Shown here piece by piece: positions 19,217-22,471 of a DNA stretch of 64,000 nt. Below the pieces are notes generated by a model, which was not told the DNA's origin, ran no database searches, and worked only from the letters and a program-made list of their open reading frames with translations. A program made the translations under genes and the position numbers. This stretch comes from Gloeocapsa sp. DLM2.Bin57 (GTDB lineage Bacteria; Cyanobacteriota; Cyanobacteriia; Cyanobacteriales; Gloeocapsaceae): positions 1 through 64,000 of the forward strand of contig RECR01000059.1 of assembly GCA_007693955.1 (NCBI GenBank), written 5' to 3'. Within the stretch, counting starts at the first letter, position 1, and the number at the start of each line of letters is the position of its first letter.

Positions 19217-20122
19217 ATGATTGGTACTACCTTATCTCCTCGTAACGAGAACTTTCTACAAGTAATCAAAAGTTACTATCTCTTAACTAAACCGAGAATT
19301 ATTCCCCTACTCCTGATTACTACAGCAGCTTCAATGTGGTTAGCAGGCAAAGGAGAAGTTAACCCCTTACAAGTATGTATTACTCTATTGGGGGGAACTC
19401 TCGCGGCAGCTAGCGCCCAAACCTTTAATTGTATCTATGACCAAGATATCGATTATCAAATGTTGCGGACTCGTGCTCGCCCCATTCCTTCGGGAAGAGT
19501 ACAGCCCCGTCACGCTCTCTTTTTTGCTATTATCCTAGGTATTGCTTCTTTTTGTCTATTTGCTTTCTTGATCAACCTCTTAAGCGCTTGGTTAGCAATG
19601 TCAGGTATAGTCTTCTATCTGTTGATTTATACCCATATGCTCAAACGTCATAGCACCCAAAATATCGTGATTGGTGGTGCAGCTGGTGCAATCCCTCCTT
19701 TAGTCGGTTGGGCTGCGGTTACAGGAGAATTAAGTCTAGCTGCTTGGACTTTATTTGTGATGATTTTCCTGTGGACTCCCCCTCATTTTTGGTCTCTAGC
19801 TTTGATGATTCGCGATGACTATGCCCAAGTAGAAATACCTATGCTACCAGTGATTAAAGGAGCAGCTTTAACAGTCAACCAGATTTGGCTCTATACTTGG
19901 TTAGCGGTAATCTCCAGCTTTATTTTGGTTTATCCTCTCCATGCTGTTGGGATTGTTTATACCCTAACCGCTATTGTCTTAGCCCTCATTTTTCTCTATA
20001 AAGCTTGGTTACTTAAGCAATCTCCCGATGATAAGGATTTAGCTCGCTCTCTGTTTAAATACTCTATACTCTACATGATGCTCTTGTGTACTGCTATTGT
20101 AGTTGATAGCTACTGTTTTTAG
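19217..20122 (+). CDS. ctaB: Protoheme IX farnesyltransferase (heme O synthase)
   Basis: It adds a farnesyl group to heme B, giving heme O, the step before CtaA. The UbiA-type membrane prenyltransferase has 301 residues, with the prenyl-diphosphate/Mg motif NCIYDQDID, then [11 protein letters not shown], and a second acidic loop [12 protein letters not shown]. Nine membrane segments are expected. It forms an operon with ctaA, so heme A supply and the oxidase genes share a divergent locus. A hairpin lies 6 bases past the stop. Confidence 0.95.
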
Positions 20123-20345: not shown

Positions 20346-20410
20346 ATGAGTGCTTATTCTTAATTCCTAATTCTTCATTCTTCCCTATACTTCACAATAT
20401 AGTTAAACAC

Positions 20411-20474
20411 AGAAAAGAAGCCGACGACTTGCCATGTTTCGTCTCGGCTTCCTCTCTGGTTCGCTCCTCACACT
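20411..20474 (-). ncRNA. Small RNA, Yfr2-type candidate
   Basis: Minus strand. A consensus promoter (TTGACA, 17 bases, TATAAT) places the 5' end near 20474. The roughly 64-nt transcript would start AGUGUGAGGAGCGAACC and end in a hairpin, GAAGCCGAGAC pairing with GUCGUCGGCUUC, then UUUUCU, a good intrinsic terminator. The loop reads GAAACAUGGCAAG. Size, terminator and loop recall the abundant cyanobacterial Yfr2 family, though that match is from memory. GUGUGAGGAG at the 5' end is the exact complement of the CUCCUCACAC core of the Yfr1 small RNA, so pairing with Yfr1 is conceivable. Confidence 0.65.
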
Positions 20475-20480
20475 AATTTA

Positions 20481-20509
20481 ATTATACACTAATAGGTATT
20501 TTTTGTCAA
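20481..20509 (-). promoter_or_regulatory. Consensus sigma-70 promoter of the small RNA
   Basis: On the minus strand TTGACA (20504-20509) and TATAAT (20481-20486) are separated by exactly 17 bases, a perfect -35/-10 pair. It reads into the small RNA and away from any protein gene. Confidence 0.8.
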
Positions 20510-20572: not shown

Positions 20573-22471
20573 TTAATTATCTCTTTCGGCTAATTCTAGC
20601 CAACGCTCTGTGGCTGTTTCAATTTCGGTTAAGATTTTAGCTAAATTAGCACTAAGAAGTTGTAATTCTTGGAAGTCATCGGGGGGGGTTTGGTAAAGGA
20701 TAGCCTCTAATTTGCTTTTTTCTTGCTCTAATTGCTCTATTTTTGGCTCTAAGGTTTCATATTCCCGTTTTTCTTTAAAGGAGAGTTTATTATAAGTGTT
20801 AGCAGGTTGAGAGGGTTTAAGGGGTTTTTTACTGGTTGTTTTAGAGGTTTTGGTTTCTAGATTGGCTGTTTTTTGCGTTTCTAGATAGACAGAATAATTA
20901 CCAGGGTATTGACGTAGTTTACCCTCTCCTTCAAAAGCAAAAATAGTGTCAACGGTGCGATCTAAAAAATAGCGATCGTGAGAAACAACGATGACACAAC
21001 CTAAAAAGTCTTCGAGATATTCTTCTAAAACCGCTAGGGTTTGTACGTCTAAATCATTGGTGGGTTCGTCTAAAATTAGTACATTGGGAGCACCCATAAG
21101 TACTTCTAAAAGAAAGAGACGTCTTTTTTCTCCTCCTGAAAGTTTATGGATGGGTGCGTATTGTTGATTCGGTGGAAATAAGAATCTTTCTAGCATTTGA
21201 GAAGCGGTGATAATACTTCCGTCTGCTGTTTTAACTAATTCGGCTATATTTTTGAGATATTCAATCACTCTTTTCTCTTCATGACCAATTAAACTTTCTG
21301 AATGTTGGTCAAAATAGCCAATCTTTACCGTTGAGCCTATTTCTACTCTGCCAGAATCAGGAGTAACTCTAGCAGTAATGATATCCATTAAGGTTGATTT
21401 ACCCGCACCATTGCTACCAATGATACCTACTCTATCCTCGGGATTGAAAATATAAGTAAAGTCTTTAATCAGGGTTTTTTCTCCGTAGGCTTTGGAAATA
21501 TTATGTAATTCGATGACTTTTTTACCTAAACGAGTACTAGCTGTAGAAATACCTACTTTTCCTAGTGCTGGTTGGAAGTTTTGCTCCTGCATCGCCTTGA
21601 TGCGGTCAATTCTGGCTTTTTGCTTAGTGCTGCGAGCTTTTGGACCTCTTCGTAACCATTCTAGTTCTCTTCGTAACACTCCCTGGTGTTTGCGTTGACT
21701 ACTCGCGAGCATTTCTTCAGCTGCTGCTTTTTTTTCTAGGTAATAAGCGTAGTTGCCTGCGTAAGCATAAAAGTTACCTCGGTCTATTTCCAGGATTCTA
21801 TTGGTTACACAATCAAGAAAATAGCGATCGTGAGTAATTAATAGCAGTGCACCTTGATAATGGTTAAGATAACTCTGTAACCATTCTATAGCTATGGCGT
21901 CGAGATGGTTAGTAGGTTCATCAATTAGTAGTAAATCTGGTGTAGATAGTAATGCTGAAGCTAAAGCAATACGTTTACGATAACCTCCTGAGAGGTTGCC
22001 TACCCTAGCGTGAAAGTCTGTTATCCCTAATTTATTTAGGATAATTTTAGCGTTGGTTTCTAATTCCCAAGCTCCCGCGGCTTCAATACGTTGACTGACA
22101 TTGGTAAGTTTTGCCAGGAGATTGGTGTTATCTCCCTGATTTTCCCCAAGTTGAGTAGAGATTTCTTCATATTCTTTGACTAAACCCATTTCTTGACTAC
22201 TATGAGCGAAAACTTGCTCTAAGACGGTATAATCATCTTGAAGATCTGGTTCTTGGGGTAGATAAATGACTTTAGAACCTGGATTGACTTTAATTTCACC
22301 ACCATCAATAGGCTCAATTCCTGCGATCATCTTGAGGAGAGTGGATTTACCAGAGCCATTAGTACCAATTAAACCAACTTTATCTCCTTCGTCGAGACTG
22401 AAGTTAGCATCAATGAGAATTTCTTTGATCCCAAAATCTTTTTTAAGCGATCGCGCTGTTACAATAGTCAT
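20573..22471 (-). CDS. ABC-F family ATPase, Uup-like
   Basis: The 632 residues carry two fused ATP-binding cassettes and no membrane domain. Walker A sites are GTNGSGKST and GSNGAGKST; signatures are LSGGYRKRIAL and LSGGEKRRLFL; both have LLIDEPTNHLD- and LILDEPTNDLD-type Walker B. A charged interdomain linker and a C-terminal coiled coil (about 555-632, EYETLEPKIEQLEQEKSKL) match Uup rather than EttA. ABC-F proteins act on the ribosome or, for Uup, on branched DNA or ribosomes. ATG start. Confidence 0.88.
   Translation of the reverse strand: MTIVTARSLKKDFGIKEILIDANFSLDEGDKVGLIGTNGSGKSTLLKMIAGIEPIDGGEIKVNPGSKVIYLPQEPDLQDDYTVLEQVFAHSSQEMGLVKEYEEISTQLGENQGDNTNLLAKLTNVSQRIEAAGAWELETNAKIILNKLGITDFHARVGNLSGGYRKRIALASALLSTPDLLLIDEPTNHLDAIAIEWLQSYLNHYQGALLLITHDRYFLDCVTNRILEIDRGNFYAYAGNYAYYLEKKAAAEEMLASSQRKHQGVLRRELEWLRRGPKARSTKQKARIDRIKAMQEQNFQPALGKVGISTASTRLGKKVIELHNISKAYGEKTLIKDFTYIFNPEDRVGIIGSNGAGKSTLMDIITARVTPDSGRVEIGSTVKIGYFDQHSESLIGHEEKRVIEYLKNIAELVKTADGSIITASQMLERFLFPPNQQYAPIHKLSGGEKRRLFLLEVLMGAPNVLILDEPTNDLDVQTLAVLEEYLEDFLGCVIVVSHDRYFLDRTVDTIFAFEGEGKLRQYPGNYSVYLETQKTANLETKTSKTTSKKPLKPSQPANTYNKLSFKEKREYETLEPKIEQLEQEKSKLEAILYQTPPDDFQELQLLSANLAKILTEIETATERWLELAERDN

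Follow-up and report, generated by a model that had tools for sequence, protein, structure and literature searches.

The minus strand of the DNA analysed here very probably carries a stand-alone small RNA gene of the Yfr2 family, whose RNA pairs with the core of the small RNA Yfr1 and thereby relieves Yfr1 control of envelope genes. Yfr2 is a small regulatory RNA of nearly all cyanobacteria, and its front end can bind and block Yfr1, a small RNA that controls cell-envelope genes. The sRNA described here is a further example of this known family, and both the family and its mechanism have already been published. Our data thus support the interpretation given by the first-pass annotation as right in essence, though not new, and what we add is a conserved subtype that is under-scored by the current model, a partial synteny of this subtype, and candidate targets within its genome. 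The elements of the predicted gene are:

20481 to 20509, minus strand: sigma-70-type promoter TTGACA-N17-TATAAT, with its position kept in homologues
20411 to 20474, minus strand: predicted gene of the Yfr2-family sRNA, based on an Rfam RF01701 match at 20408-20477, the fold and a covarying stem
20464 to 20473, minus strand: GUGUGAGGAG, which is exactly complementary to the Yfr1 core CUCCUCACAC and stays unpaired in the centroid fold
20459 to 20462, minus strand: GAAC, invariant in the subtype, based on the cofold with Yfr1 and the subtype alignment
20411 to 20457, minus strand: hairpin with a loop-proximal bulged G, the 12-nt loop GAAACAUGGCAA and a U-rich 3' side, probably the terminator, based on the fold and two-sided pair changes

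The promoter, with TTGACA at 20509-20504, a spacer of 17 nt and TATAAT at 20486-20481, agrees with the consensus at 12 of 12 positions, exactly where it had been placed before, and it is the sole perfect promoter match in the window (the whole stretch of 64,000 nucleotides), where shuffling gives an expectation of 0.08. Downstream of TATAAT, the minus strand continues with TAAATTA and then GTGTGAGGAGCGAACCAGAGAGGAAGCCGAGACGAAACATGGCAAGTCGTCGGCTTCTTTTCTG. The 10-mer GTGTGAGGAG (20473-20464), which occurs once in the window with 0.04 occurrences expected by chance, starts 7 nt past the −10 box, and this is the most frequent spacing among 102 distinct homologous upstream regions. At the matching place, 94% of these regions have a promoter that agrees with at least 9 of the 12 consensus positions, compared with 5% of shuffled controls. 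The gene would be transcribed from 20473 or 20474, which would make the unpaired GUGUGAGGAG the 5' end of the RNA, and the sRNA is presumably expressed in the present organism.

The predicted RNA of about 64 nt consists of the unpaired 5' end and a long hairpin, whose bulged G lies three pairs away from the 12-nt loop. Folding of these 64 nt gives −24.8 kcal/mol (z −3.3), a value equalled by none of 200 shuffles. The first-pass annotation had the RNA ending in a hairpin plus T-run; the hairpin is well supported by the fold, and the T-run is weaker than implied, as it is short (TTCTTTTCTG) and partly embedded in the stem, so that the terminator is not a textbook one. A terminator scan had no entry for this hairpin, but the scan allows loops of at most 8 nt and thus excludes a 12-nt loop. 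The transcript would end past the long hairpin, and we infer such a termination for the present organism, with some read-through toward the 3' end of the convergent ctaB-like gene being possible because of the weak T-run. A coding role was rejected, in agreement with the earlier reading: the only ATG in the sRNA (about 20434) opens a frame of 10 codons, and it is ACG or AAG in most relatives.

The family assignment, which had been suggested from loop and size, is supported by a full-length match to RF01701 (Cyano-1; cmscan, model positions 1-69, E 7.3e-6) of 40.0 bits, 1 bit below the curated cut-off of 41 bits, and this is the only meaningful match among 4227 Rfam families. We take Cyano-1 to be Yfr2, in part because of the Yfr2 features described next. 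These are a 5' end that is conserved and unpaired, a loop of 12 nt and a one-base bulge beside it, and both the loop size and the unpaired end are found in the Synechocystis Yfr2a-c transcripts; read as complement, the primers for Synechocystis Yfr2a even include the CGAAACATGGCAAG loop and the GTGTGAGGAG start of the sRNA (PMC2662882). With the family, exemplified by Synechocystis Yfr2a-c, Nostoc Yfr2-1 and Prochlorococcus Yfr2-5, the sRNA has in common the unpaired, conserved GUGUGAGGAG 5' end, the long stem, the one-base bulge near the loop, the conserved 12-nt loop with GAAACANGG, an own promoter that is present in sequence and conserved in homologues, the occurrence of several copies per genome, and the proposed antagonism to Yfr1. 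It differs from other Yfr2 RNAs in that the 5' motif of its subtype is followed by CGAACCAG and the loop is closed by a GAGAC/GUCGUC helix, and in that it falls just short of the Rfam cut-off. The partner RNA Yfr1 (RF01116) has another structure and sequence, with the CUCCUCACAC core between two hairpins, and is encoded elsewhere, whereas the sRNA carries the reverse complement of this core. Yfr10-type sRNAs also belong to the published Yfr1/Yfr2 network; one of their loops bears the Yfr1 motif itself, whereas the sRNA carries its complement. Yfr10-like RNAs at other CTCCTCACACY sites of the genome were considered and rejected: no hairpin/terminator gene was found there and none was convincing, as two of the sites are the opposite strand of gene-start regions and most others lie within open frames.

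Running the Yfr2 and Yfr1 covariance models on this genome and examining the pairing in silico had been proposed along with the original interpretation, and both models found matches. There is one Yfr1 gene (RF01116, 58.1 bits, L009 1478-1540, contig C43), whose two hairpins enclose CACTCCTCACACCAC, so that the core presupposed by the first-pass annotation is indeed present. It lies upstream of a thioredoxin-like gene. In other genomes, Yfr1 is mostly found between guaB and trxA (PMC6778093); here, the trxA side is retained and the other flank is a different gene, RelA/SpoT-like by eye. In silico, the duplex of CUCCUCACAC and GUGUGAGGAG covers 10 accessible base pairs at −16.8 kcal/mol, or −15.8 kcal/mol net of opening both RNAs, and none of 200 shuffled sRNAs reached the latter value (mean −3.4, best −9.8 kcal/mol). 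The cofold extends this duplex past one A·C mismatch by four further pairs, GUUC/GAAC. GAAC is invariant throughout the aligned subtype and GUUCA is found in 28 of 29 Yfr1 genes, yet the modelled extension is only suggestive, because GUUC also belongs to a Yfr1 stem. Since neither pairing region varies, Yfr1 and Yfr2 show no covariation with each other, and the conservation of the 5' motif may have other reasons as well, such as an RNase E site or mRNA targets. The genome has a second RF01701 match, which lies above the cut-off (52.1 bits, C107:4617-4684, L001 1501-1568) and has a doubled, imperfect 5' motif (GTGTGAGGTGTGTAAGGAG). This doubled motif cofolds with Yfr1 into a longer, bulged duplex.

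A chance assembly of promoter, 10-mer and hairpin, for which nothing more than the small size of the element speaks, is so improbable that we dismiss it; it is refuted by conservation, as besides the RF01701 match there is homologous DNA in 48 of 60 relatives, and the stem covaries. In 18 homologues, diverse members that were hand-picked for variety, 97% of the stem cells are paired and 8 of 17 pairs have changed on both sides. On four of five measures, this is more than in any of 500 shuffles, and it lies far above all slid versions. RF01701 matches occur in all 60 relatives and RF01116 matches in 59. The RF01701 matches exceed the cut-off in 41 relatives, and 19 have matches below the cut-off alone. 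In these 60 relatives, 41 of the 45 below-cut-off matches coincide with homologues of the sRNA's DNA, and the cut-off is therefore too strict for this subtype. The subtype has the signature GTGTGAGGAGCGAACCAG...CGAGACGAAACANGG. In a phylum-wide sample of 386 genomes, the search pattern GTGTGAGGAGCGAAC.AG-N-CGAGACGAAACA.GG matched 81, once per genome except for two genomes with two copies, while the backward control pattern had no occurrence. In named genomes, the subtype was found in at least 118 stretches, with Nostoc, Calothrix, Microcystis, Thermosynechococcus, Leptolyngbya and Gloeomargarita among the matches listed. As its members mostly score near or under the cut-off, the Cyano-1 cut-off of Rfam misses a widespread Yfr2 subtype. 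A phage-borne Yfr2 was rejected, since the sole match in one scan of viral contigs lies within a coding frame of 1369 amino acids and has no Rfam match, and thus is a chance match.

Two protein genes flank the sRNA in the window:

20573 to 22471, minus strand: ABC-F-type protein with two ABC_tran domains (Pfam), the upstream same-strand neighbour, outside the sRNA
19217 to 20122, plus strand: UbiA-family prenyltransferase (Pfam PF01040), ctaB-like by context, the convergent neighbour, outside the sRNA

No conserved synteny of the sRNA with the ABC-F or the ctaB gene was found. At 68 of 110 listed subtype loci (L044-L153), the same-strand upstream gene belongs to one family, whose typical member has a DALR_1 domain, and at 62 of the 110 a HAD-type hydrolase (by sequence motif) follows downstream in convergent orientation. 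Published work describes the loci of yfr2 genes as unconserved (PMC6778093), a description that this synteny qualifies. It is an even question for us whether the CGAACCAG/GAGACGAAACA subtype represents a Yfr2 lineage of its own, mostly single-copy and largely syntenic, whose Yfr1-binding arm is lengthened (10 + 4 pairs). On this view, the subtype would represent the ancestral "core" Yfr2 and be under-annotated on account of scores at or below the Rfam cut-off, and the other copies would be lineage-specific paralogues. In both same-genus relatives, the subtype RNA is preceded by a gene for a DALR-like protein, which resembles the DALR family by its FPLQYSHARCC motif and itself has no Pfam match. 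The homologue of this gene in the sRNA's genome lies on contig C43 without a subtype copy in its flanks, and hence it seems that the sRNA copy was relocated or that its surroundings were rearranged. The differing neighbours and the C43 homologue without an adjoining copy could also indicate a decayed or silent copy that was displaced from its ancestral locus, which we regard as improbable, as the promoter is perfect, the invariant motifs are intact and the stem is compensated.

By analogy, the published Yfr2/Yfr1 mechanism is most likely also that of the sRNA. A literature search with the sRNA sequence itself gave nothing useful, and the mechanism has been described for relatives: Yfr2 pulls down Yfr1, restores a Yfr1-repressed reporter, and is protected by Yfr1 from RNase E cleavage (PMC6778093), and Nostoc Yfr2 binds Yfr1 in EMSA and rises under nitrogen deprivation (PMC6974561). 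For relatives, functional antagonism was shown in an E. coli reporter, and expression and binding have been shown as well. In the present organism, the 5' end of the sRNA would base-pair with the Yfr1 core and compete with mRNA targets of Yfr1 that bear the same GUGUGAGGAG near their start codons, and the control of envelope genes by Yfr1 would be relieved or reset; we infer such an antagonism here. For the conserved GAAACANGG loop, a second partner is probable, and a tentative and clearly less likely alternative is that the RNA mainly regulates mRNAs or asRNAs directly via its loop and 5' motif, with Yfr1 pairing being secondary. The loop and stem top (CGAGACGAAACANGG..AGTCG) are indeed conserved as strongly as the 5' motif, and many other Yfr2 pull-down targets have been reported (PMC6778093), but the 10-nt complement to the Yfr1 of the same genome is exact, and the same Yfr2/Yfr1 pairing was published for two other genera (PMC6778093, PMC6974561).

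Antagonism to Yfr1 by competition requires a motif that is shared with the targets, and the sRNA and the candidate targets do share GUGUGAGGAG-type sequence. With Yfr1, two Yfr2 copies and motif-bearing envelope targets, the whole published circuit can be recognized in this genome from its sequence. The anti-Yfr1 motif GGTGTGAGGAGTAAAA occurs three times in the genome. One site (L008 about 1492-1511; C37:73226-73241, minus strand) is at the ribosome-binding position of an AMIN/Amidase_3 gene that encodes an AMIN-domain N-acetylmuramoyl-L-alanine amidase, the second (L011 about 1496-1511; C71:5705-5720, minus strand) carries this 16-mer where a Polysacc_synt_2 gene begins, and the third is antisense within a coding frame. 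Judged by these motifs, the amidase and polysaccharide-synthesis genes are likely Yfr1 targets. For amiC2 of Nostoc, targeting by Yfr1 has been verified, and with outer-membrane protein genes it belongs to the verified or predicted targets there (PMC6974561). One same-genus relative retains the motif at the amidase gene with a single change. The motif at the Polysacc_synt_2 gene is kept without any change at the corresponding position of L250, from a same-genus relative whose protein is 95% identical. Elsewhere among the relatives, motifs that are nearly identical stand ahead of open frames whose starts resemble signal peptides and which look porin-like by eye.
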